From the NCBI GenBank assembly GCA_026770585.1, contig MU646577.1:419613-447116 (forward strand): a stretch of 27,504 nt of DNA, read 5' to 3'. The stretch comes from Baffinella frigidus (lineage: Eukaryota; Cryptophyceae; Cryptomonadales; Baffinellaceae). The notes beneath the pieces were generated by a model. That model saw only the letters and a list, made by a program, of their open reading frames with translations. It was not told the origin of the DNA and did not search any database. This document shows positions 503 to 27,504 of the stretch, piece after piece (positions within the stretch are counted from its first letter, which is position 1; the number at the start of each line of letters is the position of its first letter). Position numbers and translations under genes: made by a program.

Positions 503-557
503 CTGAGGAGCGGGGCGTAGATGTGGTTCCCGCCCACGAGATTCTTCATCGCGAATC
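503..557 (-). CDS. Kelch gene exon 22
   Basis: 17 codons with two bases at each end, phase 1 to 2: FAMKNLVGGNHIYAPLL. The acceptor is CCAAACCAG and the donor CTCAG|GTTCCG. GGNHIYAP looks like a blade strand after the GG. A strong acceptor (TTTTTCTGTCGCAG) with the exon start at 180 could begin the next exon, but its extent is unclear. Confidence 0.65.
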
Positions 558-3352
558 CTGGTTTGGGGTTTGGGGTTGAGGGGTTAGGGTTTGAGGTTTT
601 GGGGATTGGGGTTTGGGGTTTGGGGTTTAAAGTTTGAGGTTTGGGGGTTGGGGTTATGGGTTTAGGGTTCAGGGTGGGCTTGGGGTTTGGGGTTTGGGGT
701 TTAGGGTTTGGGTTTTAGGGTTTGAGTGTTTAGTGTTTAGTGTTTAGTGTTTAGTGTTTAGTGTTTAGGTTTGATGGTTTATGGTTTATGGTTTAGGGTC
801 CAGGGTTCAGGGTGGGTGTAGGGTTCAGTGTTCAGGGCTGGACCGCGCGGGGGCATTTCCCCTTTCATGATTTCGACCTCCTCCTCGCCTTTGTACTTTG
901 TGCCTGGAGGTTGTAGGGCTTAGGGTTGAGGGTTTAGGGCTCGGGGTTTAGGGTTCATGGTTTACTTGTTCCGAGGAGTAAAGATTTTCAAAGGTAAATG
1001 ATCCCAGGGGTAAGGATTTCAAACGGTGTCGCTCTCGAACGAACTTGGCACATATAAGACAGTCACGGCCGGAATCCGGCTTTGGCTTTCAGGTGAAAGT
1101 CCTTGAAATCTTTTTAGGTGGCTTTTAGGTGTTCCCTCCTCGCTGGACCGCGAAATGTTCCGAGGGGTAAGGTTTTCAGTGTTTAATGTTTAGGGGTAAG
1201 TAAGGTCTTAAGTGTTTATGGTTTAGGGGCGTTTCACCCTTCATGGTCTGAACTTCCTACTCCGCTGTGTACTTCACTCCGAGCCACAAGATTTCAGCTA
1301 AGTCAACCAGCTCACCTAAGTCAACTTTCCCCTGTTTTCGTTTAGATGGACCCGGGTACCATGGCCGGCATTTGACTTAAGGCGCTGGCTTTCAAGGGGA
1401 GTTGACTTAGGCGAAATGTTCTGACTCCGAGTGTACTTGGTGTCTGGTGTTTCGAAGGGTAAATATTCCGAGGGTTGAGGGTTTACGGCTCAGGGTGAAG
1501 TGTTTAGGAGTCATGGGCGGTACCCTCGAGGTGAAAACCTGAACCCGAAGGGTAAATCTTCCAAGGGGTAAAAAAGCGTTACCGGGTTTGAGCATTTGGC
1601 ACCACGATAACACCCAGAAGTCGAGAGGCGGTGCACGCCGTCCAACTTCCCCGCATACATGTAAATATAGTACATGTATAGATTATACAATCTTAAGATG
1701 ATACAATCTATAAATCTGCCATAACCCATCAATAAATACGACATAAACCATTAATAAATCCATTATAAACCCATTTCTCGGTACAGAACAGGCCGGGCAA
1801 AACGGTGCGTTTTGAGTACCGGGTTTGAGCATTTGGCTCCAAGACATCGCCCGGTAGTCGAGGCGGTGCACGTCGTTGAGCTTTCTGGCGCGGGAGGATC
1901 CTCCCGCGATGATGATGGAGGTGTCTTGCAGGAGGACGCAGGGCGAGGACCTCTGCAGGTGTGTGGGGGGAGTTTTAATGGACAGAACGCAGGTGACTGG
2001 GCTGTTGTAAACAGCTGACTGGGCTGCTGTACACAGCTGACTGGGATAATGTGACGTCGTTCAGCTTTCTGGCGCGGGAGGATCCTCCCGCGATGATGAT
2101 GGAGGTGTCTTGCAGGAGGACGCACGGGGAAGACCTCTGCAGGTGGTGGTGGTGGGGGGGATTAATGGACAGCATGCAGGTGACTGGGCTGTTGTAAACA
2201 GCTGACTGGGCTGCTGTACACAGCTGACTGGGCTAATGTGACGTCGTTCAGCTTTCTGGCGCGGGAGGATCCTCCCGCGATGATGATGGAGGTGTCTTGC
2301 AGGAGGACACACGGGGACGAGCGCTGCAGGTATGTGTTGGGGGAAAGTTTTAATGGACAGCACGCAGGTGACTGGGCTGTTGTAAACAGCTGACGGGGCT
2401 GCTGTACACAGCTGACTGGGCTGCTGTGACGTCGTTCAGCTTTCTGTCGCGAGAGGAGCCCCTCGCGATGATGATGCTCCTGTCTTGTAGGAGGACACAC
2501 GGGGACAAGCGCTGCATGTGTGCGTGGGGGGGCGGTTTCTGGTCAGCAAACAGCTGACTGGGCTGATGTTACGTCGTTGAGCTTTCTGAGCATCATTATC
2601 TGAAGAGGCTTCTCCCAGGCCAGGAGGACGCATGGGGACGAGCGCTGCGGGGAGAGGGGGGGGTTAGTCTAAAGAAAACAGCTCCTCGTGGTATTGGTCA
2701 CGTCCTTAGGCACACCCTCTCCACACAGCGGACTTCGAAGGGATCTTGAATAACCCCTAAGCGATAAGACCTAGGACCCTACGGTAGGTAACCCGTAGGG
2801 ACATAAGGGGGGTTCCTACGGATAAGGTAACGGAAACTCGGGCACTGAGTGCCCAAAAATCCCTTCGAAGTCCGCTGTGTGAAGTACTGGGCACGTCCAA
2901 CAGGCACACCCACTGAGGGACGGGACCTGGACATCGTGTCCAAAAAGGATGACCGGCCGTGGCATCTTTGTGTGTGATACGTCCCACCAGCCACCAGAAG
3001 TGAACCAACCCAAAAGTTGATTTCCCCTGCAGACTAGCCCTCAGGGTTAGTCTGCAGGGGAAATCAACTTTTGCCATTCTTCGATTTGGTTCTCTTCTGG
3101 TGGTTGGTGGTCAGCTGTTCGTAGTCCGTGGCCAGTCCCCTCAAAACCTCTTCTCCGTACTGGTCACGTCCGTACGCACACCCTCTGAGGGACGCCCTTC
3201 GATGGATGCTACGGTAGGCAATACCGTAGGGACACAGGGGGGTTCCCACGGATGAGGTAACGGAAAGTCGGTCAGAATCGGGCGAGGTCAAGTTACTCTC
3301 TGTCTCTCTCGCTCTCCTTCTCGCTCGCTCTCTCTCTGACACACAATATCTC

Positions 3353-3383
<31 letters not shown>

Positions 3384-6300
3384 CTCTCGCTCTCTCTCGC
3401 TCTCTCTCTCTCTCTCTGGCTCTCTCTCTCTGGCTCTCTCTCGCTCTCTCTCTCCAAACGGCCAACGTACCTGGGACGGTTGTCGCCCCTCGATATCCTT
3501 GGTGATTTTGTGCAGCTCGTGGTGGTAGTAGACCTTCACACCTGTTGAAAAACGCCAAAACGTGTCAAAAGTCACAGGTGGAGATTCGCCCAAAGTTGAT
3601 TCCCAAGATTTGTACCAGATTTATCTCAAAGAAAAAAGGAACATCCGTTGCCAGGAGTAACGGTGAAGAACACGATCGTTACCTTTTTTTCGTTGAGAAT
3701 AGGCAGAGCTAGGAACACAGGGTTGTTCCTCGAAAACTTGTGAAGTTGTTCCTCGAAAGCAGGCTTGTTCTCGGTGATCTTTTTCGAACTACGCGGGAGA
3801 GCTACATGTGATTTTACGCCCTGCGTCCATCTATTATTTTCCCTTAAAATCGGCAAAAGTTGCCCGAAATGCCCACAGATAATTGACTTTGACGGAAAAG
3901 TAACCGCAGGATATGGGGAAAAATGGATCCAATAACGCAACTAGCCCTCCCCCGTAGAACGGCGACCACTTGTTCTCTGGGACGTCTCAAAAGCAAAAGG
4001 TCAACCTCCGTTAGTACGGTGGAGAACACGGGTCTTACCTTTTTTCGAACGCATGTCAACTTGAGAAAAGTCGGTCAGCCCGAGTGAGGCAGAGCTAGGA
4101 ACACAGGGTTGTTCCCCGAATACTTTCGAGGTTATTGTTGGAAAGTGGTTCTCAGTCGAAAGTGGTCCTGAGTCACCTTGTTCAAACGTATATCCCTTGT
4201 TCAACGCGCAATCTCGAAACCTCGAAACCCAGGAATCGAACAAGTCTTCCCCGGATTCCATCTACTAGGAGTGACGGAGGAAATCACGGGCTCTACCTTT
4301 TTGGAGAAAAACACTTGCTTTACCTTTTTCGAACGGCGACCACTAGTTTGCAGCGAGCGTGGGACGTCTCAAAGCAAACGGGAACCTCCGTTCCTAGTGT
4401 TAAAGGTGGAGAAAATCGGGTGTGACCTTTTTCGAACGGCGACCACTTGTTTGCAGTGTAGTCGAAGATCCACATGTCGCTGAAATACATCTGGGTCAGC
4501 GGTTTGGGGTTTAGGGTTTGGGGTTCAAGGCTGAGGGTTCAGGGTTTAGGGTTCCAGGTTCCGAGTTTGGGGTTCTGGGTTCCGGGTTCCGGATTTAGGG
4601 TTTAGGGTGTAGGGTTTAGGGTGTAGAGTTCAGGGTTCAGGGTTCAGGGTTTAGGGTCCAGGGTTCCGGGTTCAAGGTTTAGGGTTTAGAGTTCAGGGTT
4701 CCGGGTTCAGGGATCAGGAGTCAGGGATCAGGGTTTAGGGTTTCAGATTTTAGGGTTTAGGGTTGAGGGTATACCTTGTACCGCACCCCCGCAGGTTCAT
4801 TAAGGTTCCAGGGTCAAGGTTTAGGGTTTGGGGTTCAAGGTTTAAGGTTTAGGGTTTAGTACATACCTTGTACTCACCCCCACGGCTTTTCCCGCCGTAG
4901 AGGATCGTCCGCAACCCATCGTAGACCTGGATGGTTGAGGGTTTGAGACCATGGTATTTGTGGTGTATATGTGGTGTATATGTATATACCACGTGGTGTA
5001 TACGTATATACCACGTGGTGTATACGTATATATGGTGGGAGATACCAAGGTGGGTGCGTCTCTTTCAGCCGGGGCGCGCGCGGGGTCGAAGATGTGCAGC
5101 TCCGTCCACTCCATCAGCACGACGCCTCAACCCTAGTATATGTGGTGTATATGTGACGGGCGTCCCTATCGGCCAGGGCGCACGCGCAGAGCGAGACACC
5201 ATTTCCGAGGAGGACCCAGCCACACAGCGGGCTACGAAGAAATTTTCGGCCCGAATCGGGCCACCTTTCCGTTACCTTATCTGTAGGACCCCCCCCTATG
5301 CCCCTACGGATTGGTTACCGTAGGGTCGTAGGTCTTATCGCTTGAGGGTTGTTCGAAATCCCTTGAAAGTCCGCTGTGTGGGACGTGTGGATCACACGCG
5401 TCGAACCTTGAGAGTAACTATGGTACGAGCAACTCTTACGACAACGTCTAAAGTGTTCCTCCAGTTGACTTTACTTGTGGAACAACCCTTGCGAGAGAGT
5501 CAGAGTGACTTTACAGAAAACGTACAGGTTATGTACCATGGTAGGAGCGTCGGGTTCGGCCGGGGCGCGCCCCGGCCGTATGTACATACCATACACGTAT
5601 ATACCACGTGGTGTATATGTGTATATGTGTATATGTGTATATGTGTATATGTGTATGTGTGTATGTGTGTATATGTGTATATGTGTTTATGTGTATATGT
5701 GTATATGTGTATATGTGTGTATGTGTATATGTGTGTATGTGTATATGTGTATATGTGTATATGTGTATATGTATATATGTGTATATGTGTATATGTGTAT
5801 ATATGTATATTTGTATATGTGCATATGTTTATATGTGGTGCATACGTATGTATAGTGGGAGAAGCTCCTGGGGATTACCAAGGTAGACGCGTCGCGTTTG
5901 GCTGGCGCGCGCGCGGGCCAAATGTACGTATCATATACGTGTATACCACATGGTGTATACGTATATATGGTGGGAGATACCAAAGTGGGTGCGTCGCGTT
6001 CGGCAGGGGCGCGCGCGGGGTCGGAGATGTGCAGCTCCGTCCACTCCATGAGTACGACGCCCACCTGATTGGGATTGAGGGTTTATTGAGGGTTGAGGGT
6101 TGAAGGTTGAGGGTTTAGGGTTGAGGGGTAAGAAAAGGGTTTGGGGTTTAGGATCGGAGGTTAAGGGATTAGGGTTTGGGGTGCCAGGGTGAAGATGTGC
6201 AGCTCCGTCCAGCACTCTATCAGCACGATGACCACCTGATTTCATGCGATCTGATTTGTTCACCTTTCGCTATCCACACAGCTGGCTATGAAGGGATTTT

Positions 6301-9300
6301 CGGGCACTCAGTGCCCGAGTTTTCCTCACCTTATCCGTAGGAACCCCGCTATGGCCCTGCGGGTTTCCCACCGTAGGGTCTTAGCTCTTATCGCTTAGGG
6401 GTTATTCAAAATCCCTTCGAAATCCGCTGTATGGCTTATGAGTCGCATTCAATTTGAAACGCCGCATGGTCAAGTTCCTGACGGGAACATCACCACCCTC
6501 AGTACAACCCATACAACCAACATTCTAAAGTAGTCTCATTTTTGGCCTCGAGTGCATAGTACATCGCACACCACACTTATGTGGTCAGCCCGGGCTCTTT
6601 CCCACTCCAAAGTTGACAGATTTAGACCGCACATCCAGCTGGTCAACTGGAGAATAACTTGTCAACTTGAGAATAGTCGGTCAACCCGAGTGGGGCAACG
6701 CGAGACCTTGGCCTGGGGGAACTTGGCGTTGTTCGCGGCGTTGTAGCACTGCAGGTCGATCGTCCAACGTACCGTAAACGCCCGATTCCAGACCTGTGGG
6801 CGTGTGTTGGGTCCGTATCGTATAACCCTCTAAGGTTATGTTCCTTTGTACAGACGTGGAAAATGCTCCGGCCCCACGTCAGGGTTTAGGGTTCAGGATT
6901 AGGAGTCCGGGTTTTGGGGTCAGTGATCACGACAAGTCCTTGCCCGCATTCTCATCGTCACATTGGTTCCCAAGACGATCTTCTTCCCGTAGCGCAATAC
7001 ACGCGCGGCGCTAGTGTAATGCCACAAGCTAACGCCAACGGACCCCTTAGCCTACGGTAGGAACCACCCCTCCTCCTACGACGTTGAAAACAAAAAGGTC
7101 TTTAAAAGTTGTAGGGGGGGTGCGCCTACCGCAGGCAATCCGTAGGCTCCAAGTACCTCGCTGGCGTTAGCTTTTCGGATGAAGTGTCTAGCTCATCACC
7201 AGCGCTGCGCACGCGCGTGCGCTCGCGCAGCGCTAGTGTCCTAGACCCGGCGCACCTCCAATGTGGGGCAGGGTTGGAAGGTAGGGCAGGGCAGCACCTC
7301 GAGATTGCCGCCCTCTTTAGACCGCAAATCCAGCTTGTCACTCTCGAGGTGCCGCCCTGCCCTACCTTCCAACCCTGCTCCACATTGGAGGTGCGCTGGG
7401 TCTAGGACACTGTCGCCGTCGCTGACGGTGACAGCGATCGTCGCGTCGCCATCCTCATCATCTTGATCCTCCTCCACTATACCCCCTTAGAACCCTGGGG
7501 TTCTAAGGACCAGGGTTCTAAGGATGCATAGTGTAAACACTACCTACGGTGGTAGTGTTCAGAGTTCTAAGGTGGTAATGTCTAAGGTTCTAACGTGGTT
7601 TCGGGTGGCAGGAAACGCGCACCTCCAGAGTTCTCGAGGGTAGGGGGTGTTGGGGTTAGGGGTGTTGGGAAACACGCACCTCGAGAGTGACGACGGCGAC
7701 AGCGATCACCTTATTACCATCCTCATCATCTTGATCATCCTCCACTATACCCCCTTAGAACCCTGGGGTTCTAAGGACCAGGGTTCTAAGGATGCATAGT
7801 GTAAACACTACCTACGGTGGTAGTGTTCAGAGTTCTAAGGTGGTAATGTCTAAGGTTCTAACGTGGTTTCGGGTGGCAGGAAACGCGCACCTCCAGAGTT
7901 CTCGAGGGTAGGGGGTGTTGGGGTTAGGGGTGTTGGGAAACACGCACCTCGAGAGTGACGACGGCGACAGCGATCACCTTATTACCATCCTCATCATCTT
8001 GATCATCCTCCACTATACCCCCTTAGAACCCTGGGGTTCTAAGGACCAGGGTTCTAAGGATGCATAGTGTAAACACTACCTACGGTGGTAGTGTTCAGAG
8101 TTCTAAGGTGGTAATGTCTAAGGTTCTAACGTGGTTTCGGGTGGCAGGAAACGCGCACCTCCAGAGTTCTCGAGGGTAGGGGGTGTTGGGGTTAGGGGTG
8201 TTGGGAAACACGCACCTCGAGAGTGACGACGGCGACAGCGATCACCTTATTACCATCCTCATCATCTTGATCATCCTCCACTATACCCCCTTAGAACCCT
8301 GGGGTTCTAAGAAACCCTGGGGTTCTAAGGAGGTACAGCGCAAACACTACATACGGTGGCAGTGTTCAGGGTTCAAAGGTGGTAATGTCTAGGGTTCCAA
8401 CGTGGTTCAAGTTGTTAGGAAACGTGGTTTAGGGTGATAGGAAACGTGGTTTAGGGTGATAGGAAACGTGATGTAGGGTGTTAGGTAGGGATTTGTTAGG
8501 GGTTTGGGGGAATGCTTACCTCGAGCGCGACCCTCCAGGGTTTTAAGGTGGTTATGGGCTTGGGAATGCTTACCTCGAGAGCGACGACGGCGACAGCAAT
8601 CACCGCGTCGCCGTCCTCCTCATCTTGATCCTCTTCCAAATACCACACCCCACACCCCAACCCTCAAACTCCAAACGATCTAGGGTGTAGGGTGTAGGGT
8701 CCCGAAATCCTAAACCCAAGATCTTAGGGTAAGGGGTTGCACCTCGAGAGCGACGACGGCGACAGCAATCACCGCGTCACCGTCCGCATCATCTTGATCC
8801 TCTTCTAAATCCGCATCGTTCCTTGCTATCTTGATCACCCGCTTGTACAGATGCACCTGTGTTGGGGGTTTTGGTTCAGAGTTCAGAGTTTGGAGTTTAG
8901 GGGGTAGACAGTCTGCTATTTTGATCACCCGTTTGTACAAATGCACCTGTTGTGAGGGGTTCGGGTTTCGGGGTTCGGGTTCGGGGGTTTGGGAATAGAC
9001 AGTCCACATCGTCCTCATCCTCCTACCGGTCAGTGTCATTCCGCGCTATCCTGATGAGCCGCTTGCATAGGTGCACCAGTTTTGGGGATTAGGGATTAGA
9101 ATTCAGGGCCTTGTCCTGCTTCTCCTCCTCCTCTAAACCCAAATTCCTCTTAATTTTTGTAACAGCCGCGTGTACAGGTGCACCGGATTGGAGGATTTGG
9201 GATTTGGGGTTAGGGTTAGGATCAGGGTTAGGGTTAGGGTTAGGGTTAGGGTTTGGGGATTAGAGGTCGGGCGACGAAGGAATGTTCTGGCCAAAATTAA

Positions 9301-12300
9301 GCAATTTTCCTTTGAGATAGTCCTAGGAGAGGGGAGGGGACCGTGGCGTGTTTGGAGGGCGGGGGCGGAGTCCCAAAGAATCGGAGCTGCTTCCAGACCA
9401 CGTACTCGCCCTCTGGTCTTTGCGAAGACAGCTTGCCCCTGCTCGGTTTAGGGTGTAGGGTGTAGGGTGTAGGGTTTGGGGGTTGAGGTTTCGGGCTTAG
9501 GGTTTCGGGTTTCGGGCTTGGGGTTTCGGGGTTTGGCTTCGAATTTCGGGTTTCGGCTTTGGGGTTTGGAGCTTGGGGCGTGTGGTTTGTGGTTTATGGG
9601 TTGTGGTGTGTGGTGTGTGGTTTGTGGTTTGTGGTTTGTGGTTTCGGGCTTAGGGTTTCTGTCTTAGGGTTTCGTGTTCAGGGTTTAGGGTTTCGGGTTT
9701 AGGGTGTGGGAGGGCTGGGGGCGCACGCATCGATGCGTGGGTTCAGGGTTTACAGTTTAGGGTTTAGGGTGTTGGGTTTCGGGTTTAGGGCTTAGGGAAG
9801 GGTCTCACGAGTCCATTGGCTGCCGGGCGTTTGCCGCGAGCGTGCGGAGCCTCTCCTCCTGAAAGTCAACAATCCCACGTTAAGTCAACTCACTACCTCA
9901 GCATTTGCCCCCTGAAGTCAACAACTTCGTTTCAAGTCAACGAGTTGCCGTACAAAGTCGATTGGCCTCCTAAAAGTCAACAATCTCGCGTCAAGTCAAC
10001 GCCCTGCCGTGAAAAGTCAATTTCGTGAAAAGTCGATTGGCTGCCGGGCATTTGCTGCGAGCGTGCGGAGCCTCTCCTCCAGAAAGTCAACAATTCCGCG
10101 TTAAGTCAACGGGTTGCCGTGTAAAGTCAACTCCGTGCCGTGAAGGTCAACAATTTCGTGTAAGGTCAACGCGCTGCTGTGAAAAGTCAACGCATTGCCG
10201 TGAAAAGTCAACATTGCCCTCCTGAAGTCAACAACTTCGTGTAAAGTCATCAACGTCGTGTAAAGTCATTGCGTTGTCGCGTCAAGTCGATTGGCATCCG
10301 CGCGTTTGCCGCCAGCGAGTGGGGCCTCTCCTCCGTGTTCAGCGTTTAGGGTTTAGGGTTTCGGGTTTAGGGTTTAGGGTTCAGGGTTTAGGGTTTAGGG
10401 TTTAGGGTTTAGGGTTTAGGGTTTAGGGTTTAGGGTTTAGGGTTTAGGGTTTAGGGTTTAGGGTTGATGATTTAGGGCTTAGGACATCGGGGTTTTGGTC
10501 TAGGGTTTCGGGTTGCGGGTTGCGGGTTGCGGGTTTCTTATCCTGAAGTCGTAATTAGGGTTTGCGGTTAAGGGTTTAGGGTTTGGGGTTTGGGGTATAG
10601 GGGTCGCAACCTGTTCGCGCTTCTTCAGAAAAGCTTTCCGTATCTTCTCCTCCACCGCAACCTGAATTATCGAGTTTTACGGTTTAGGCTTTAGGCTTTG
10701 GGGTTTATGGTTTATGGTTTATGGTTTCGTGTGTGATATACGTTTCTCGAGCCGCCCCTTGCTCAAACAAGTCCTCTCTCCCTACAGTTTTGATCTCAGA
10801 AAATAACTGAATCAGTTCCCTTAGAGTTTTCATTTAATTAGGAGGTCTATTTAAATTTACTATGCCCTACATAATTTCTCCTGTTCGACCTCTCATTGAA
10901 AAGGAACTGATGGAGTTATCTTCCAAGATTAGTTTGATGACAGTTGACGATGACACTTTCCTGACAATTTGATGACGCATCAAAAGGGACATGCGATGTT
11001 GAGTGTCCTCAGGATGGTAAACGCCCCAAAAGCGCAGCGTTTCGGGCCAGCACGTGTTCTTGGGAAGACCAACACCTCCAAAAACGCATCGTTTCAACGA
11101 ATTTAAACATGAAGCGTTTCAGGGACACGACTCCATAAATGATATTTTTGGGGGCGTGACCTCGGCTGAACCTTCAACATAAACCCTGGCCGAACCCTAA
11201 ACCCGAACCCCTAAAGCCTAGCCGAACACCCAACCTTACACCCTAGCCGAACCCTAAACTATAAACCCTAGCAGACCCCTGAACCCTAAACCCTAAACCA
11301 TAGCCAAACCTCAGCGTCGAGCAGCACAAGACGCGCTTGTTCGGCTATGTCCGCGGAACGATCAGCTTCGAACTGTCTTATTGGGGACAAGACTCCGAAA
11401 CGGACGATTTTTCGGAGGACAATCCTCCGAAACGGACGCTGTTCGGGGGACAAGACTGCAAAAAGGACGCTTTTTCGGGGGGTATGTGACTGCACAAATG
11501 ACTTTTGGGGGGACGTTATTTTTTTGGGGGGGTGACCTCAGCGTCGAGCAGCGCCTGTTCGGCTATGTTCGCGGAACGGTCCACTTCCAACTGTCTTCAT
11601 GGGGACAAGACTCCGAAACGGACGCTCTTGGGGGGGGTATGACTCTAAAACGAACGCTTTTGGGGGGACAAGACTCCGAAACGGAGGCTTTTGGGGGGTC
11701 ACGACCCCGAAAAGGACGTTTTTCGGGGACGAAAAGAAGGATTTTCAGGGACGTGACCTCGGCGTCAAGGAGGACAAGGCGCGCCTGTTCGGCTATGTCC
11801 GCGGCACGGTCTGCTTCCAACTGCGTTCAGGGTTTAGGGTTCAGGGTGTAAGGTTTGGGGGACATAAGTACAGGTCAGGGTTTAGGGTTTTATGAGAACA
11901 GAACGGTCGGCTTCCAACTGGTGGATTCGGGGTGTGGGGTTTGGGGTTTGGGGTTTATAGTTTATGGTTTGGGGTTTGGGCTTGAGGTTTTACACAACTC
12001 GAGAAGCGCCACAGGGGGAATATACGGCGGTTGACTTAAGAGATGTTGACTTTAGAGATCACTGGACGAGAGGGGCCTCATAACCTGTTCACGAAAGAAG
12101 AGCCGCTTGACGCCAGGCATGATTCCTGTCGCGTCCACAGGGAACTTCTCCCCACCTGTTTCGCGAAAGTTGACAACCCCGGCGTAAAGTCAACTGGTGC
12201 GTAAAGCAAAAAAATAGGGGTTGGCTTAAAGTTAGGGGGGGGGGGGCAGACTTGGAGCGAGGCAGACCATGACCACTTAGCAGCACCAGGGGGCTTCACG

Positions 12301-18300: not shown

Positions 18301-21300
18301 ACAAAGCGCCTACAATCGACATTTAAAAAGGGTGCGTGTCGAGGTGCAACGAATGATGGATCATCGCGGCCACGCCCCCCACGATATGCCCCGTCACTTC
18401 TTCTGCGGTCGGAGAAGAGGGTTAAGACAGTCGCGGAAGAGGGTTAAGACGGTCGTAGACAATGGATATGAGAGCGAATGATGGATCATCGCGGCCACGA
18501 CCCCCGCGATATGCACCGCCACTTCTTCTACGGTCGGGTGGGAGGGTTAAGAGAGTCGAAAAAGAGGGTTAAGAGAGTCGCTGAAGAAGGTTAAGACAGT
18601 CGTAGACAATTAATATGAGGGCGAATGCGCGAGCACACCCACCCACAAACAATAATGTGTCCGCATTAGATTGGACGAACGATGAAAATACTTTTCATTG
18701 CTTCCTAGCACTGCCTCAGTCTATTCAGTTTCATCAATTTGGCGAGACCACCCTGTTTTCCACTCTAAAGTTGACGGATTTGAACCGCAAACCCAGCATG
18801 TCAACTTAGGAATAGTCAGCCAACCCGACTGAGGCAGAGCTAGACTTTTCACGTCGGAGGGCTGTAGAGAACCTGCACTGCTAGCGAGAACATTTCACCG
18901 TAAGTCAACTGGCTCATCCTCGACACTAAGTTGCCGGGGATCCCAGAACAGGCAATTGGCTTAAGACTCTGGCTGACAGGGCAGTTGACTTCAGGCGAAA
19001 TGTTCTGGATGGAGAGAATCTGGTTGGCCCACGACAGTCAACGCTACCCAAGCACCCTTTTTAAATGTCTACTATAAGCGTTTTGGATGGAGTTGGTCAC
19101 GTGGCTACACGGAAAGCGAGTAGCCACGTGACCAAACATATGAAAGTTTCTACCCAATAATCACTTGTACAGCTCTTCGGGTTTTAAATTGAGGAATGGA
19201 ACTGCCTCATGTGGGGAGAGAACCTGGTTGGCCCACGACAGTCGACATTTTCCGCGTCACCTGATCCCGCCAACGGTAAAATGTCACCCCCATTTTCGAA
19301 GAGCAATGTCACCCCCATTTTCAAAGAGCAATGTCACCCCCAGTTTCAGAGAGTAATCTTGCCCCCAGTTTCAAAACGCAATGGTACACCAAGTTTCACA
19401 GAGCAATCTCACCCACAGTCTCACCAATCGCACCTCCAATTTCAGAGAGCAGTCTCAACCCCAGTCCCACAGAGCCGTCTCACCCCTTGTTCGGTTGCAC
19501 TCCTCTCCACGCTTGCACGCAAACGCAACCTGAAAAGAAAAACCCACATTAAAATATAACGCCACCTTAAAAGAAAACGCCCTTAAAAGAAAACGCCACC
19601 TTAAAAAGAAAAACAGCCAACGCCGTCTGTGTCACGCGAACCCACCCGTTCACATGAAAACAACAGTGGCAAAGTTAATTTTCCAATTTTGCAAAATTAA
19701 CTGAATCTGTTGGGTATCCTCCTTGAAAAAAACGGGTTCAAAACAACTGAACGTCGTGTTTGGGTGGATTTACGACGGCAGCAAAACGATCAAACTCGTG
19801 TGGTTTCCTCTTGGGAAAAGGCGGGGGCTAAAAAACGAGTGAGTTTCGCGTGGTTTCCTCTTGGGAAAAGACGGGATCAAAACCACTGAATTTGGTATTT
19901 GGGGGGAAGTACTTCGGGTTTTCGGCCCGCCTGTTGGTCCGCCTCTATCGAAACCTTCCGCTGTTTGTCTGATGGGTTGGGTTTTAGGGTTGAGGAACAC
20001 GGCGGGTTAGTGTTTATGGTTCAGGAACAAGACAGGTGAGGGTTGAGGGTTCAGGAACAAGCTGGGTTAGGGGCTAGGGGTCAGGAACAAGACGGGTCAG
20101 GGGTTACGGTTCAGGAACAAGAAGGGTTGGGGTTTATGTTTCAGGAACACGATGGGTCAGGGTTTAGGGTTCAGGAACAAGACAGGTGCGGGTTGAGGGT
20201 GCAGGAACAAGACGGGTTAGGGGTTCCACTTAGCAGCCACCGGGGGCTTCACGGATACAGTCCATCTTAACGATTTGTACTAGAATCTTATCCCTTGCCC
20301 TGGAATTCTGACCGGAATTTCACCTTGAAGTCAAGGTGAAAAGGTCTTCTCTCGCTGCTCAGTGGTAGGGGTCAGGGGCAAGACGGTGTTTGTCCCCTCG
20401 CGGAGGTAGAGGATGATTTCATGTGGAAACGCTTTGAAGTTTCAAAAGTCGGCAGTGAAATTTACCACACAGAACGGTGTTTACTAGTGACATTGAAGAA
20501 AACGAGTAATAATTTCCATTGAATTCCAGTTTTTAAATTAAAATATTTTCCACATGAGATTGTAGCAAGCAGTGCCGCCTGTTCAGCGAGAATCCTACTC
20601 ACGCGCATGCACACGCACACACATGCACAGATAAACACGCACAGTCATGCACAGACACAGACACAGACACAGACACAGACACAGACACAGGCACAGACAC
20701 CGACACCGACACAGACCCAGACCGAGACACACCCTCAACCCCAACCCCTTCACATCAACGTGAAACAGGCGATTTTCTCCCACTCTTAAGTTTTTTATCC
20801 CACTCTTAACAGGCGATTTTCTCCCACTCTTACGTGAAACAGGCGATTTTCTCCCACTTTTAAGGCTGGTCGGTGGTGGGGGGTCTGGCACCTTGGAAGG
20901 GGTTGGGGTTTAAGGTTTAGGGTTCAGGTTTCAGAGATTAAGGATTGTGATTCAGGATTTAGGGTTCAGGGTAAGGGGTTAGGTGTTAGGGATTTGGGGT
21001 TAGGGTTTCAAGTTCAGGGTTTAGGGCTGAGGGTTTAGGGGGCTTAGGGTTTAGACCTTTGAAGGGATGAAGGGGCCCGGTTGTGGGTTGAGTGTTTAAG
21101 GTTTCGGGCGTAGGGTTTAGGGTTCAGGGTTTATGGTTTAGGTTTGAGGGTTCGAGGGTCAGGGTTCAGGGCTCGGTTTGGGTTATATGGTTTAGGGTTC
21201 AACGTTTCTGGTTTCTGGTTTAGGGTTTAGGGTGTAGGGTTTAGGGTTAAGGGTTTAGGGTTTAGGGTTTAGGGTTTAGGGTTTAGGGTTTGGGGGTTAG

Positions 21301-22458: not shown

Positions 22459-22702
22459 CCTGCTCTCTTCCCTGTTCTACTAAAGTGGCGGACACGCCGC
22501 AGTCAAGGAATAGCTTGAAGTGCTGAGCAAGGGTGCGACCCCCCTGTCTTCTCCGCCGAATTCTGAGGAGCACAGGCACCCCTGCAACCCCGTCCAAACG
22601 GAGCGCCCTCAGGTTGGTTCTTCAGGTGATGAGGCTGCTTCTGGTCAAATTCAAATCTCAACGTTCGTTTCAAAGAAAGAGACGATTGGCAAGGCTCCGA
22701 CC
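22459..22702. promoter_or_regulatory. Probable bidirectional promoter between divergent genes
   Basis: The 244 bp lie between the ATG codons of the minus-strand Kelch gene and the plus-strand gene. No TATA box is obvious. The right part (22514-22702) is open in the plus-gene frame without an ATG, so it is either 5' leader or further coding sequence from an unseen upstream exon. Confidence 0.4.
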
Positions 22703-22810
22703 ATGGTGGTTGACTGGCGCAGTGCGCCCTTGCGCGGCGGGCCCGTCGATCCGAAGCGCCACTCCTCCCCGTCTGCCGGCGAAAACGCCGCACGCACGCC
22801 GTTCGGGCAG
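22703..22810 (+). CDS. Plus gene exon 1
   Basis: 36 codons starting MVVDWRSAPLRGG, ending FGQ in phase 0. The donor is GGGCAG|GTCTAG. The upstream frame stays open to a TAG at 22511, so an earlier start by splicing cannot be excluded. Confidence 0.6.
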
Positions 22811-25800
22811 GTCTAGCCGCCCCTCGAAACCTGCAAAAGTAGAGTGGCCTGCGAGGCCCATGCCTGCGCCGGCACTGACTGACCCCTGCTCATTGCAGGT
22901 GAACACCAACTCGAACGCCGACGCACGGGCTAAACCGGCGGCGGTCGCCGCGCACACGTTCGGGAGAGGGCAGGGCCCTCATGGGACCAGCCACGCTCAA
23001 AACTCGGAGCAGCACCATCTCCGCAATGTCGCGATCGGGGGGCAGGCAGGCATCCCGCACCGCTCCGACCCCGCGTCCACTTCTGCGGTCCCGGGTCAGA
23101 GGGAAGACCCCCAGGAGATGAAGCGGGTGCTGCAGGAGTCGATCGCGACTCTCAAGGAGCAGCTCCGGCACCAGAAGGCCGCAGATGAGGACGACTCGCC
23201 CGCCGAGCCCCCCCACGCGCCCCAGCAGCCGCACGCAGCGCTGCAGCCCGCGCTGGGCGGCACCACGCAGGCGTCGCTCCTCTCGCGCGCGCGCAAGACG
23301 CGCCTCCTCCCCGCCGCGCGCCTCTCCGCCCCGGGTGAGGGCCCGCGCTGGGGCACGGCCCCCACGGCGCCCGTCCTCGCCGCGCAGGGCGGTGACGCAC
23401 GCGCCCCCTCCCCGGCCGGGGGGATGGCGGCGGGAGGGAGAGAGGAGGCGGCGGCGCAGAGCCGGGCGGCGCGCGGGGCATTGGAGAGGAGGAGGGCGTC
23501 GTCGCACTACTCGAGCAGTGATGAGGAGGAGGACGAGCGCCAGATACGGTGCGTTTTCACCCTCTGCCTAAACCATGAACTCCAGACTCCAAACTCTAAA
23601 CTTTAAAACCCTAAAACCTAAACTCTAAAACCCTAAAACCTAAACCCTAAAAACAGCATACAAAACCTGCGCCCTTAAACCCTAAACCTGCACCCTACAC
23701 CCTACACCCAGTATACAAACCCCACGCCCTGAACCCTAAACCCTAAACCCTGAACCCTGAACCCTAAACCCTAAACCCTAAACCCTAAACACCAGGGGAG
23801 CAAAGCCTGCCGCGCCCGCTTCCAGGGGGCGCCAGGAAGGCGGGAATGGCTCCAATTCCCAGGGGTTCGAGCCAGGGCGGGGTGGGGCGCCGCAGGAGCG
23901 GGAGGGGGAGGAGGGGGGCAGCGCGTTGGCTCCGCGCATCAAGAACTTCCGGAGGTGACGCACCGGTTGCTCTCTGGCTAGCTCTGCCTTAAAGACTACT
24001 CTGAAGTTGACATGATGGGTGTGTGGTACGAATCCGTCAAGTTTGGAGCGGGAAAGCGCCCGTGCTTACCGAATCGGTGCGACCGAATAGTCTGAGACAG
24101 AGCTAGACTGTGGCTGGGCGTGTTTCTGGGGGGGCGTGAGGGTTTGGGGTTTAAGCGTGATGGGAGCTTGAGGTGAGCTTGAGGGGAGAGGCCCGACGCT
24201 CCTCTGAGCTACAGAAGAACGCAGCCCGGCGGAGCGTCATGCTTCTCCCGGAGGACATTCTGCATGAATGCGGCTGCACGGCACCTTTTTCGAGCCCCGC
24301 GTTACAAAATTTTGTACCAGAGTGCTACAAATTTGTTCCGCGAACAAATTGTAAAGCGATCCCCAGAGTAAAAGGTGACTTTGCTCCCCTGACGCCCCGC
24401 CCCGCCCCACCCCCACAGGCTCCCCCTGCGGCGTCCGCGCCACAACCCCGAAGACCCACCAGAGCCCGCGCTCCCCCCCGCCGCCTCCCATGGGAGCCTC
24501 AACCAACCTGTTCGCTCTGCCTCCCCGGAGCAACCTCCCCTCTGCGCTCCGCTGGGCTCCGAGCAGTCTCCGGGGTACTTTCAAGCCCGAAACACGACAC
24601 CCGAAATCCGAGCATGCACTCCCTAGCTCTGTCCCAGTTCAATTTGGTCTCGTAGGTCGAGTGCCCCCCCCCGAAATTTCACAGGTGATTTTCACGGGGG
24701 GGGGGGTCAAAATTCACCTGTGAAATCTCGGTGGGGGGCACTCTATCTACGAGACCAAATTGAACTGGGACAGCGCTAGACCCCCCTCCCGCCGCCTCCC
24801 TGGAGCCCGTGCCCGTCCGGGCTGTGCAGCCTCCTGGGTATTGCAACACCCGAAACCCGATATTGATACCCGAAACTGGAACCCGAAACCCGAAAGTGAT
24901 ACCCGAAACTGAAACCTGAAAACCGAAAACCGGAACCAGGAACTCCGACGCCGTCCCGCAGTCTCCGTCTGGGAAACCGTCACTGGGCGTGGGGTAAACC
25001 CCTGAACTCTAATCCCGAACCCCAAAACCCGAACCCAGAACCCTAACCCTGAAACCGGAACCCTAACCCCGAAACTTTAACCCTGAAACCCGAAAACCGA
25101 AAACCGAAAACCGAAAACAGGTCGATGGGTTCGCGCATCCCAGCGCAAACCCTAAACCCTAAACCCTAAACCCTAAACCCCAAACCCCAAACCTCAATCC
25201 CCAAACCTCAATCTCCGGACCCCAAACAACAAACCTCAACCCCCAAACACCCAACACCAAACACCAAACCCTAAACCACAAACCACAAACGCCAGGTCGA
25301 TGTTTTCGACGCACCCGAACGCTGAGGAGCAGCTCCGGCGGGCGCGCGTCGCTGGTGCACACCCGAAACCCGAAACCCGAAACCGCAAACCCAAAACCAT
25401 AAACTCAACAACATAAACCTGACACCATAAACCCGAAACCCGGAAAACATTGAACAATTCATACCAGCAGATTCACCCTGATTTGTACCTCTAGGTTTCT
25501 CCTCCCTGATTTAAACCCCAACCCTCACCGCAAACTCCGACCCCTAAATTCTAAACGCCTAACCCCAACCCCCGAACCGTAACCCTCACCTCTATCCCCA
25601 ACCCCCTAAAAAAACACAGACACCCTACACCCTGAACCTGAACCCACAAATCCTAACCCCAAACCCCAAAAACGGGAGTGGCATGGGACAGGGCCCTGGT
25701 GGCAGTGAGCGTAGAGTCTGCCCAATCCCAAACCCCAAACCTCTAGCCCCTAACCCAGATACCCAGATACCCCTATACCCAGATACCCCTATACCCAGAT

Positions 25801-27504
25801 ACCCCTATCCCTTATCTGCCGAAAAAGGTACGTGGTCATTTTTTTTAGCAGGAATCAGGTGTGTAGGGATTCGAATTCAAGCGGAAGGAGGTTTTCCGGG
25901 CCTCATAAATCAGGAATTTCTCTGGTCGTTGAGCACCAATTACTCAATTTGTTCAGCTTAGCGAGCCTGACAAGCTGGTGTTTTTTTCATAATTTTCCAT
26001 CAAGAGGCGGCCTAATTAAAAAATGCCAAAGTTGACATTTGAGCCTTTTGTCATCTCAGGATGACACAGGCACTTAAGGGATACCCCTATACCCCTGTAC
26101 CCCTATACCCTAAAACTCCAAACCGGAACCAAAAATCCCGAAGCAGGAGTGGCGCGGGACAGGGCCGTTGTCGCAGCGAGCGTCGAATCTCTTTGCTCTC
26201 TGCGGCGATACACTACCCCTAAACCTTAACCCCCGAACCCCTCACCCCCAAAACAGGAGTGGCGCGGGACAGGGCCCTGGTTGTATCGAGCGTCGAGTCA
26301 GAAACCCTACCCCTTAGACCTTAACCCCAAAACTCCACCCTGTACACCAAATCCTCAAACACCCAAAAACAAAACCTCAACGCTATACACCAACACCAAA
26401 ACACCAAACCCTAACCGCTATACACGAAAACAGGAGTGGCGCGGGACAGGGCCCTGGTCGCAGCGAGCATCGAGTCAGATAGCAGCCTCGACGACTCCCT
26501 CCTCGACGAGCACCTCCCACCCGCCGCATCCTCCTCGGGCGCCCCGTCCACCAGCGGGGGCGCGGCGGCCCCGCTCTCGCGCGCCACGGCCATCGCCCTG
26601 CTCCGCGCGGAGGCGTCATCGTCCGAGGAGGAGGAGGAAGGAGGCGGGTCCTCCGGGAGGGGCGGGGGCAGGGGGGGGCGCGAGGGGAAGCAGCGGATGT
26701 TTGTCTCGGGCGGGATGAGCGGGGGGGGGAGGCATGATGCGATCGTGCGGGGCGCGGCGTCGGATTGGGTTGCCGAGGATGAGCGGGTGACGCCCCGCAA
26801 CCCAGACCCTTACACCACAGTACCCTGAAAATCCGACACCGTAAGGTAGGCCTACGGAGCATGAGCGGGTGAGAGCACTGGAGGCGGGCTGGGGTTGTTA
26901 TCTTTGGATTTGATCCCGTGTGGGGTGTCGGAGTGGGTTGCTGAGGATGAGCGGGTGTGGCTCGCCCCCGTTTTGATTTGATTTGATTCCGTTGGTGTGT
27001 GAGCCTCGCGAAGCCGTCTGGTTCCAGGGGGGGTCTTTCTCTTTGGTTTGGTCCGGTGAGTTTTTTTCTGCAAAATACCCCACCACTCCCCAGGTTCCCG
27101 AAACTCTCTCGGTCGTGCTGAACACTCAACTCTAAACCCTAAACCCTAAACCCTAAACCCTAAACCCTAAACCCTACACCCTAAGCCCTAAGCCCTAAGC
27201 CCCACCACCCAGGCTCCCGAAATGCTGTCGATGGTCCTCGAGGGTGACGAAAACGCCTCACTCGCCTCCTCCTCCATATCCTCCCCCTCCGCCAACCACT
27301 CCCCCTCCAACAACAACATCCTGTCTTCCTCCGGAACCAACAACATCCTGTCTTCCTCCGGAACCAACAACATGCTCTCCTACAGCACCGGGGGCTTCCT
27401 CCCCTCGTCATCCTCCTCCATCCCCGCCAGCCCCCCCACTCTTGGCGTTGGGGCCATTTCCTACGTGGCTTCTGCCGCCATCCCCTCCTCCCCCCCCCCC
27501 CCCC
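22703..27504 (+). CDS. Low-complexity Ser/Pro/Gly-rich protein gene, 8 exons, continues past the right edge
   Basis: The coding sequence is the plus-strand join of the eight exons listed below, 1831 nt (about 610 residues), open at the right edge. All phases agree. The start is the ATG in ACCATGG, a strong Kozak context. Most of the protein looks disordered: Ala/Pro/Arg-rich, then Gly/Glu-rich, then acidic Ser patches (SSSDEEEDER, SSSEEEEE, which resemble casein-kinase-2-type sites), then Ser/Asn repeats. A short helix near residues 100-125 (MKRVLQESIATLKEQLRHQK) could form a coiled coil. No family recognised. It is divergently paired with the Kelch gene, so the two may be co-expressed. Confidence 0.7.
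22899..23548 (+). CDS. Plus gene exon 2
   Basis: 216 codons plus two bases, phase 0 to 2. The preceding intron is only 88 nt and ends CTGACTGACCCCTGCTC then ATTGCAG, a clear branch point and pyrimidine tract. The donor is TACG|GTGCGT. It encodes the predicted coiled coil, an Ala/Pro/Arg-rich middle and an acidic SSSDEEEDER end. The frame also reads through the 88-nt intron, but exon 1 frame and splice signals favour splicing. Confidence 0.78.
23580..23795. repeat. CCCTAAA-type filler, plus gene intron 2
   Basis: Degenerate C-rich telomere-like repeat running to the exon 3 acceptor, with small exon 3 echoes at 23654-23672 and 23711-23731. Confidence 0.85.
23796..23954 (+). CDS. Plus gene exon 3
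   Basis: 159 nt, phase 2 to 2, Gly/Glu/Arg-rich (GFEPGRGGAPQEREGEEGG, then ALAPRIKNFR). The acceptor is AAACACCAG, directly after C-rich telomere-like repeat; the donor is GGAG|GTGACG. Two decayed copies of its 5' end lie upstream at 23654-23672 and 23711-23731. Confidence 0.68.
23978..24106. mobile_element. CTAG-ended MITE, copy 2
   Basis: Ends CTAGCTCTGCCT and AGACAGAGCTAG; interior ACTCTGAAGTTGACATGATG. Lies in plus gene intron 3. Confidence 0.65.
24107..24418. other. Rest of plus gene intron 3
   Basis: Includes an AT-rich patch at 24300-24357 (TTACAAAATTTTGTACC and CAAATTTGTTCCGCGAACAA) in GC-rich surroundings. A possible alternative exon starts after GAGCTACAG near 24210 but reaches a stop at about 24370. 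Confidence 0.35.
24419..24574 (+). CDS. Plus gene exon 4
   Basis: 156 nt, phase 2 to 2, Pro/Ser-rich (PEDPPEPALPPAASHGSL, then SASPEQPPL). It has a strong pyrimidine tract and acceptor (CCCACCCCCACAG) and the donor CCGGG|GTACTT. A degraded copy of its middle lies at about 24775-24835. Confidence 0.65.
24623..24779. mobile_element. 157-bp foldback element
   Basis: Arms of about 64 bp (CTAGCTCTGTCCCAGTTCAA at the left end) around a loop with a G run. Ends with CTAG like the family above, but the arms differ. Confidence 0.75.
24940..24993 (+). CDS. Plus gene exon 5
   Basis: 54 nt, phase 2 to 2, NSDAVPQSPSGKPSLGV. The acceptor is CCGGAACCAG and the donor GTGGG|GTAAAC. The phase match on both sides is the main support. 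Confidence 0.6.
25118..25140 (+). pseudogene. Echo of plus gene exon 6 5' end
   Basis: AACAGGTCGATGGGTTCGCG parallels the exon 6 start CCAGGTCGATGTTTTCGACG. Confidence 0.5.
25296..25354 (+). CDS. Plus gene exon 6
   Basis: 59 nt, phase 2 to 1, SMFSTHPNAEEQLRRARVA. The acceptor is AAACGCCAG and the donor GCTG|GTGCAC. A copy of its 5' end (CAGGTCGATG then TTCG) lies upstream at 25118-25140. Confidence 0.65.
25360..26433. repeat. Plus gene intron 6 filler
   Basis: ACCCGAAA and CCCCAAACC variants, a TACCCAGATACCCC run (25755-25810), an AT-rich patch (25835-26060) and the exon 7 echoes. No further exon is needed, because exons 6 and 7 match in phase. Confidence 0.7.
25671..26302 (+). repeat. Upstream copies of plus gene exon 7 5' end
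   Basis: Copies at 25671-25721, 26143-26191 and 26254-26302 read VAWDRALVAVSVES, VARDRAVVAASVES and VARDRALVVSSVES. The last two keep CAG before GAGTGG. Confidence 0.7.
26434..26786 (+). CDS. Plus gene exon 7
   Basis: 353 nt, phase 1 to 0: VARDRALVAASIESDSSLDD, a Ser/Ala-rich stretch, an acidic SSSEEEEE, a Gly/Arg-rich tract and AASDWVAEDER at the end. The acceptor is GAAAACAG and the donor GCGG|GTGACG. Three copies of the 5' end lie upstream and two of the 3' end and donor lie downstream, all in the same frame. Confidence 0.75.
26849..26964 (+). repeat. Downstream copies of plus gene exon 7 donor junction
   Basis: 26849-26872 (CATGAGCGG|GTGAGA) and 26929-26964 (SEWVAEDER with GCGG|GTGTGG) repeat the exon end DWVAEDER and donor. 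Confidence 0.6.
27076..27112 (+). pseudogene. Echo of plus gene exon 8 5' end
   Basis: CACTCCCCAG|GTTCCCGAAA and onward reads VPETLSVVL, parallel to APEMLSMVL of the real exon 137 bp away. Confidence 0.6.
27213..27504 (+). CDS. Plus gene exon 8 (truncated by the window edge)
   Basis: Phase 0 start, APEMLSMVLEGDENASLASS, then a tandem repeat of NNILSSSGT (two full, a third begun) and a Ser/Pro-rich tail, open to the edge. The acceptor is CACCACCCAG. A copy of its 5' end and acceptor lies upstream at 27076-27112 (VPETLSVVL). The last bases are a C run, so the final residues may be uncertain. Confidence 0.72.

Follow-up and report, generated by a model that had tools for sequence, protein, structure and literature searches.

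The 27,504-nucleotide stretch analysed here (contig MU646577.1, positions 419,613 to 447,116; the whole stretch is referred to as the window) is from the Arctic cryptophyte alga Baffinella frigidus and carries a gene for a Kelch protein on its minus strand. Introns of this gene contain partial copies of neighbouring exons, which we call echoes. Copies upstream of an exon retain its 5' part, and copies downstream retain its 3' part. We consider it likely (probability roughly 0.8) that the echoes stem from out-of-register local duplications across exon-intron borders, with one intact exon kept by selection.

A first protein search gave no match. The draft protein from the minus strand proved to have a single homologue, the partial hypothetical protein T484DRAFT_1668292 from Baffinella frigidus at NCBI (P0001). 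An exon-by-exon match to P0001 set the gene model, which has 24 exons of 37-133 bases (b), 1748 b in total, and 23 introns with a mean length of 879 b, all of the GT-AG type. P0001 is identical at all residues in 21 of 23 junction checks, and the two exon 14 junctions are off by 1 and 2 residues. It is probably from a different assembly than the window, because its contig has 506,642 b and that of the window 497,551 b. Kelch repeats are present in the product, and a search of solved structures gave weak matches, mainly to Kelch proteins (best E 0.0035). Comparison of the window with viral contigs, plasmids, Rfam, and tRNAs gave no match. Exons are numbered in the 5' to 3' order of the minus gene; the numbers used in the first-pass annotation, which was made from the sequence alone, cannot be matched to ours one to one.

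Each exon was aligned to all 23 introns, with a per-exon threshold set at the 95th percentile of shuffled introns (strict test). For adjacent introns, 40,416 b were compared, with 39 direct matches and 1 inverted match; the 444,576 b compared for non-adjacent introns contained 5 direct matches and 1 inverted match. The density of direct matches is 0.965/kb in adjacent versus 0.011/kb in non-adjacent introns, an 86-fold difference. Copies were found for 13 of the 24 exons (4, 5, 6, 8, 9, 10, 12, 14, 16, 18, 20, 22, and 23), with 1 to 8 copies per exon, and exon-like copies total 2554 b, compared to the 1748 b of the exons. A looser threshold, set per intron pair, gave 41 direct and 8 inverted local matches and 34 non-adjacent ones, and added exon 2 (14 of 24 exons). 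The first-pass annotation had reported one to six copies for most exons; the copies are real, but they concern just over half of the exons and their number reaches eight.

The polarity is nearly without exception. Of the 39 direct matches in the strict test, 13 are near-full copies. Among the 26 partial copies, 16 lie upstream and carry the 5' part of the exon and 9 lie downstream and carry the 3' part, which amounts to 25 to 1. The sole exception is a downstream copy that represents the cut end of the exon 16 array. Copies within an array are not independent of one another; counted by exon-side, all 12 sides with partial copies have the expected polarity (p 5e-4), one of them also carrying the exception. 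Self-alignment of exons against introns with scoring of polarity thus bears out what had been read from the sequence, namely 5' part and acceptor side upstream, 3' part and donor side downstream (39 direct to 1 inverted match). We looked for 5' parts being equally frequent downstream and did not find this.

The features of the minus gene are listed below. Intact exons are from the P0001-based gene model and echoes are from the strict test unless marked otherwise; AG and GT are the acceptor and donor dinucleotides, and M and MITE3 are miniature inverted-repeat transposable elements (MITEs).

844..903, minus: exon 23, intact
1226..1274, minus: exon 23 upstream echo, most of the exon, ends unaligned
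1583..1654, minus: exon 22 downstream echo, 3' part, donor GT
1820..1952, minus: exon 22, intact (P0001 aa 501-545)
2051..2136, minus: exon 22 upstream echo, 5' part, acceptor AG; within the 187-b tandem array
2238..2322, minus: exon 22 upstream echo, 5' part, AG kept
2423..2505, minus: exon 22 upstream echo, 5' part, AG kept
2561..2643, minus: exon 22 upstream echo, 5' part, AG kept, degraded, score barely over the threshold
3955..4002, minus: exon 20 downstream echo, 3' part
4324..4355, minus: exon 20 downstream echo, 3' part, GT kept
4427..4490, minus: exon 20, intact
5046..5126, minus: exon 18 downstream near-full echo, acceptor lost, GT kept
5537..5608, minus: exon 18 downstream echo, GT kept
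5879..5917, minus: exon 18 downstream echo, 3' part, GT kept
5981..6064, minus: exon 18, intact
6178..6235, minus: exon 18 upstream echo, 5' part, AG kept
7420..8336, minus: 268-b tandem array with four further exon 16 downstream echoes, 3' part well matched; its cut end is the polarity exception
8574..8649, minus: exon 16 downstream echo, 3' part, GT kept
8743..8856, minus: exon 16, intact
8914..8946, minus: exon 16 upstream echo, 5' part, AG kept
8999..9076, minus: exon 16 upstream echo, 5' part, AG lost
9098..9183, minus: exon 16 upstream echo, 5' part, AG lost
9809..9858, minus: exon 14, intact in the window; 2 residues differ in P0001
10031..10079, minus: exon 14 upstream near-full echo, acceptor lost
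10285..10333, minus: exon 14 upstream near-full echo, acceptor lost
11310..11372, minus: exon 12 downstream full copy, 63 b, AG and GT kept, in frame
11537..11590, minus: exon 12 downstream copy with a 9-b deletion, 54 b, AG and GT kept, in frame
11758..11820, minus: exon 12, intact
12841..12925, minus: exon 10, intact
12997..13057, minus: exon 10 upstream echo, 5' part, AG lost
13165..13198, minus: exon 10 upstream echo, 5' part, AG kept
13369..13414, minus: exon 10 upstream echo, 5' part, AG kept
14071..14112, minus: exon 9 downstream echo, 3' part, GT kept
14231..14306, minus: exon 9 downstream echo, 3' part, GT kept
14295..14445, unstranded: M truncated at one end, separating exon 9 from the first of its downstream echoes
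14453..14539, minus: exon 9, intact
14771..14820, minus: exon 9 upstream echo, 5' part, AG kept
14879..14912, minus: exon 9 upstream echo, 5' part, AG kept
15106..15157, minus: exon 9 upstream echo, 5' part, AG lost
15749..15806, minus: exon 8 downstream echo, 3' part, GT kept
15881..15935, minus: exon 8 downstream echo, 3' part, GT lost
16078..16152, minus: exon 8, intact
17058..17107, minus: exon 6 downstream near-full echo
17237..17288, minus: exon 6 downstream near-full echo, acceptor lost, GT kept
17636..17690, minus: exon 6, intact
17993..18098, minus: exon 5, intact
18173..18331, unstranded: M truncated at one end, separating exon 5 from the first of its upstream echoes
18330..18402, minus: exon 5 upstream echo, 5' part, AG kept
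18433..18527, minus: exon 5 upstream echo, 5' part, AG kept
19020..19055, minus: exon 4 downstream near-full echo, both splice sites lost
19049..19214, unstranded: M truncated at one end, separating exon 4 from its echo
19224..19260, minus: exon 4, intact
21317..21377, minus: exon 2, intact
21406..21527, unstranded: MITE3 truncated at both ends, separating exon 2 from its echo
21523..21541, minus: exon 2 upstream echo, 5' part (looser threshold only)

In the downstream array of exon 16 (7420..8336), GT is kept in all three echoes scored. At the end of exon 14 (9809-9858, minus strand), P0001 reads PIDL, the window PMDS, and the nearby echoes (10031-10333) PID; this may reflect either the ancestral state, gene conversion between exon and echo, or an allele difference. 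The two extra copies of exon 12 (within 11310-11820, minus strand) are candidate alternative exons.

The copies extend beyond the exons. Of 37 extended alignments, five were set aside, the exon flank having matched itself or another repeat; among the 32 usable ones, 31 reach at least 9 b into the intron, with 54 to 100% identity in the intron part. Repeat pairs were also determined from the intron sequence alone (26 direct local and 10 inverted). In nine of the 26 direct pairs, both copies end flush on the same side, at the edge of an exon or echo, compared to 2 of 2000 random placements; one array accounts for six of these nine. Two tandem arrays are present, one of 187 b at exon 22 and one of 268 b after exon 16. 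The echoes sit within introns that extend past them. Material between the copies, here called filler, was surveyed in the minus gene with a trimmed echo list; it consists of M at exons 4, 5, and 9, where the truncated end of M faces the copy, and of MITE3 at exon 2, and it is partly telomere-like beside exons 16 and 18. A 6-b microhomology (CGAATG) is found at an exon 5 junction. Targeting of the borders was considered and is not claimed. An excess at exon edges was apparent by eye, and the intron-only test leaves about four independent events, which we estimate to be near random expectation. A border preference is not shown, because copies derived from exons stay recognisable for longer, the reference exon being conserved, and such a bias could by itself mimic a preference for borders.

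We propose that local duplications of a few tens to about 300 b would land out of register across exon-intron borders. An arrangement intron-X-rest would become intron-X'-(filler)-X-rest, where X stands for one splice site and part of the exon. One exon would be kept intact by selection, and the other copy would join the intron and decay. A duplicated acceptor edge would leave a half-copy upstream and a duplicated donor edge a half-copy downstream; the polarity would result because the intact exon is left downstream in the former case and upstream in the latter. Since any border-spanning duplication would produce this polarity, no mechanism acting on splice sites is needed. The duplications may result from error-prone repair after staggered or resected breaks, with templated filler and in some cases at MITE sites; filler, truncated MITEs, and the microhomology at one junction point to such an origin. 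Short exons between long introns would be recognised by exon definition, and a half-exon with one site would be passed over. Exon definition may thus make half-copies tolerable even when their splice site is intact, as a lone splice site would be ignored, and the scarcity of copies with two sites fits this.

Decay was scored for 39 of the 41 matches obtained with the looser threshold, several of them shortened by hand; an array end (7528-7420) and a weak match (5196-5151) were excluded. Exon and echo differ at 79 of 731 first (10.8%), 77 of 727 second (10.6%), and 177 of 720 third codon positions (24.6%; chi-square p 3e-16, array copies not being independent). The third-position excess arises because a neutral copy changes everywhere while the constrained exon changes mostly at third positions. 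Among 40 indels, 35 are not a multiple of 3. AG is kept in 15 of 24 echoes (17.7 expected from identity) and GT in 15 of 18 (13.2 expected), and only the two extra copies of exon 12, among those scored for both, have both splice sites and the frame. Position bias, frame-breaking indels, and splice-site retention at the level of identity lead us to conclude that the copies look like neutrally decaying DNA beside a constrained intact exon, not like hidden coding sequence. The acceptor is kept in 2 of 7 full copies and in 13 of 17 partial ones (p 0.06); a selective loss from full copies was considered and dropped, the groups having been picked post hoc.

The pattern recurs elsewhere in the genome, for which the 382 Mb assembly that contains the window was searched. 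The cleanest test is CCT-alpha (C94), whose gene has 18 exons that match the transcript-derived protein P0002 (MMETSP) at 552 of 552 residues, an identity which suggests that P0002 is from the same species as the window. In the strict test, 4 of these 18 exons have 5 direct copies, with no inverted copy and no polarity violation, and the non-adjacent introns gave 2 direct and 2 inverted matches in 114 kb. For CCT-delta (C6) and CCT-zeta (C39), part of each gene was used (8 and 5 exons), and each exon edge was moved to the closest AG or GT. CCT-delta has 7 copies in 5 of 8 exons and 1 inverted copy; CCT-zeta has 5 copies, all at one of its 5 exons, and no inverted one; polarity is violated in neither. 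A preliminary test with eight CCT exon pieces had given 6 direct matches in 4 pieces and 2 inverted ones. Repeating the analysis in other genes, which the first-pass annotation had proposed as a check, has in the final tests reproduced the pattern in all three CCT genes. Two kinesin genes (C506 and C112), chosen because a family search had already given partial second matches, have copies of the expected type at two exons; a third exon has two downstream copies whose type is uncertain. The M loci L026, L029, L031, and L050, judged by eye without gene models, have reading frames and splice-like edges that suggest more cases. On the plus strand of the window, the edges of one exon were taken from the sequence, without a protein model, and three echoes have the expected polarity:

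25676..25757, plus: upstream echo of the exon at 26434-26786, 5' part
26147..26313, plus: upstream echo of the exon at 26434-26786, 5' part
26434..26786, plus: exon
26845..26954, plus: downstream echo of the exon at 26434-26786, 3' part

M, a MITE about 182 b in length with inverted ends (CCACACGAGGC), is present in the window at 18173-18331, 14295-14445, and 19049-19214, and in the genome survey at loci L023-L052. The introns that contain it beside exons 4/5 and 9 measure 1125 to 1527 b, of which it takes up only a part. In the genome survey, which gave at least 47 matches, the best 40 of 425 first-look candidates were scored and 30 loci analysed. Long direct repeats flush with M occur at 7 of the 30 loci (scores 182-651), one being the window's own and one lying in an older tandem array; they accompany 5 of 12 truncated versus 2 of 18 complete copies, and 870 mismatched pairs of M flanks gave no flush match above 171. 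At L050, a complete M is bounded directly on either side by 53-b direct copies resembling an exon end with a donor, and chance is an unlikely explanation. Intron gain by M was considered at L026, L029, L031, L037, L050, and L051 and rejected: where it could be judged, the copy past M leads into intron-like sequence. MITE3, a second MITE family (ends CCACCAGCCCTCAGAGTGGGAGC), is found in the window at 21406-21527 and 21972-22094 and at loci L053-L082; the best 40 of 148 candidate places were scored. As a general cause of echoes it was dismissed, with only 1 of 30 loci clearly flush (the window's own) and L078 borderline (score 120, with shuffles reaching at most 111). A third element, palindromic and about 160 b long, has CACACAGCGGACTTCGAAGGGAT-like ends and occurs at 2721-2881, 5218-5386, 6275-6434, and 12472-12640. 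Degenerate TTTAGGG-like arrays make up about 12% of the minus-gene intron bases by a simple word count, several of them near splice sites. Examples are:

4507-4770: TTTAGGG-like array
10344-10536: TTTAGGG-like array
16163-16425: TTTAGGG-like array
20898-21312: TTTAGGG-like array

Echoes might be footprints of transposition, a MITE having inserted with an abnormally long target duplication that constitutes the exon copy, which for some echoes would be compatible with border-spanning duplication. M does lie between the copies at three exons, and complete M copies have flush repeats of 53 b at L050 and 40 b at L037. The latter is in the older tandem array, however, and these are the only 2 of 18 complete copies flush above 171. 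Complete M copies often show 2-b target duplications (9 of 17), so that long repeats are not the normal signature of M; 23 of the 30 M copies have no flush repeats above 171, and for most echoes none of the three marked MITE families lies between the copies. As the source of the echoes in general, we consider transposition unlikely. Random capture, in which broken intron DNA is patched with nearby sequence, as in the repair-mediated duplication of vertebrates, and exon pieces land anywhere locally, would account for the locality of the copies, the filler, and some microhomology, and in primates such events copied exons and splice sites (PMC2671141). It would, by its nature, predict no polarity, but we observe 25 to 1, together with 39 direct matches to 1 inverted; because of this polarity, we hold it very unlikely to be the main source.

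The echoes could also be functional, as alternative or decoy splice sites or as tandem alternative exons under selection. Exon 12 with its two extra in-frame copies, each with both splice sites, and the 30 of 42 scored echo splice sites that still read AG or GT would suit this, but splice-site retention is about that expected from identity, 35 of 40 indels break the frame, 11% of first and second positions differ, and no copy is included in the model protein P0001 or in the CCT-alpha transcript protein. We judge a functional role highly improbable. Repeat-rich, telomere-like sequence is hard to assemble, and reads of one exon could have been placed several times. The copies have identities of 70-95% and are truncated with a fixed polarity, the pattern occurs on other contigs, and P0001 suggests another assembly (contigs of 506,642 vs. 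497,551 b), all of which makes assembly error barely conceivable.

Intron length is related to the copies in the minus gene. The median length of its 13 copy-bearing introns is 1096 b, versus 373 b for the 10 others (p 0.004), and length correlates with copy number after subtraction of the copies (rho 0.60, p 0.002); longer introns could, as an alternative, simply hold more events. Of the minus-gene intron bases, 50% lie in local direct repeats, counting every kind and also low-complexity arrays, and 11% in local inverted ones.

Several observations weigh against border-spanning duplication as set out above. By our own reading, copies are head-to-tail at only about 5 of 18 exon-sides, with filler or unexplained spacing at the rest; given so few head-to-tail pairs, plain tandem duplication does not account for the whole mechanism. 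Of the repeated tandem duplication across borders originally envisaged, we thus retain local, border-spanning duplication with one exon left intact, but not the strictly tandem arrangement. Of three M junctions examined by eye, one has about 6/7 b in common with the exon and two have 0-1 b. At a stricter cut-off of 297 (99th percentile of mismatched pairs), only 3 of 30 M loci count, the value of 171 having been set afterwards, and the lack of flush long repeats at 23 of 30 M copies extends to nearly all of the 30 MITE3 copies. The plus-strand exon at 26434-26786 also has two weaker upstream matches (24415 and 23790) and three inverted ones, and three other candidate exon stretches of that gene gave no direct match; of the echoes initially described for several plus-gene exons, those of this one exon are borne out among the four stretches tried. 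In CCT-alpha, the local excess is gone at the looser threshold (16 kb of local comparisons gave 8 direct matches, spread over 7 exons, and 5 inverted ones, vs. 104 non-adjacent in 114 kb); because of these 104 matches, we rely on the strict test for this gene. The CCT-delta and CCT-zeta results come from adjacent introns only, and 4 of their 12 matches are near the threshold. In the preliminary test, L087 had a weak upstream match (19-129 of 132, score 122, threshold 112) without the 5' end; this counter-polarity match is absent from the later CCT-delta and CCT-zeta test. Finally, CCT-alpha introns with copies are not significantly longer (471 vs. 267 b, 4 vs. 13 introns, p 0.41), so that the relation with intron length, expected if copies lengthen introns as earlier suggested, is significant in the minus gene but not in this one.

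Tandem exon duplication is a known process. Exon 12, with its three in-frame copies, resembles it; most partial echoes, by contrast, have only one splice site. In rice, local tandem or partly tandem duplications arise from inaccurate break repair (Vaughn and Bennetzen 2014, as summarised in the review PMC7407515), the proposed cause in that summary being asymmetric nicks followed by end joining. As described there, these duplications are short, close to the break, and tandem, partly tandem, or with inserted sequence, like those in Baffinella, which differ in being dense in the genes read, of mixed divergence, and seen from exon borders. The repair-mediated duplications of Pace et al. (2009, PMC2671141) share close short copies, filler, microhomology, and the copying of exons and splice sites. 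Among the 824 events of that paper, the donor was part of an exon in 4 and a full exon in another 4 (Table 2); the sections pertaining to the primate system describe no polarity, whereas that in Baffinella argues against free capture. Exon sequence and splice signals are duplicated within a gene also in duplication-based intron gain, but a new intron arises there according to the relevant sections of PMC4974935, whereas in Baffinella existing introns grow, with the half-exon inside the intron. Introner elements, as portrayed in sections of PMC7789003, are likewise inverted-repeat elements with direct repeats; unlike M, which sits inside longer introns, they are introns themselves, with splice sites at or near their ends, and their direct repeats are 3-5 nt in Amoebophrya compared to the 40-141 b of the flush repeats in Baffinella. 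Titles and abstract openings retrieved in literature searches contained no description of introns built from oriented half-copies of neighbouring exons, and the portions of PMC12220804 and PMC3296678 that we drew on held nothing decisive on half-exon introns. The word intron is absent from the main text, as retrieved, of the Baffinella genome paper (PMC9756366). Rice and primates thus provide known examples of short local duplications with filler, and duplication-based intron gain is known as well; judged against such titles and abstract openings, oriented half-exons in introns across genes appear to be new.

Intron lengthening is usually attributed to transposons. The genome-wide mode of intron growth envisaged in the first-pass annotation is not fully supported, as recurrence was sampled in only a handful of genes, but we regard genome-wide intron growth by border duplications as plausible. 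The genome size given for Baffinella, with 33,051 gene models, is 534.5 Mbp, compared to 87.2 Mbp for Guillardia theta (PMC9756366). We tentatively raise the possibility, though we would not favour it at present, that break-repair duplications at MITEs and telomere-like tracts are a main route of intron growth and part of the reason for the roughly sixfold larger genome; exon definition would act as a filter, resulting in a ratchet with half-exon fossils. Half-exons are oriented markers from which rate, size, and age of local duplications could be read gene by gene, the exon serving as a conserved ruler by which copies are recognisable after the intron part has drifted. They also raise a splicing question, namely how one exon is picked among several near-identical splice sites. 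The echo pattern also points to one possible cause of the large size of this algal genome, which can be put to the test.

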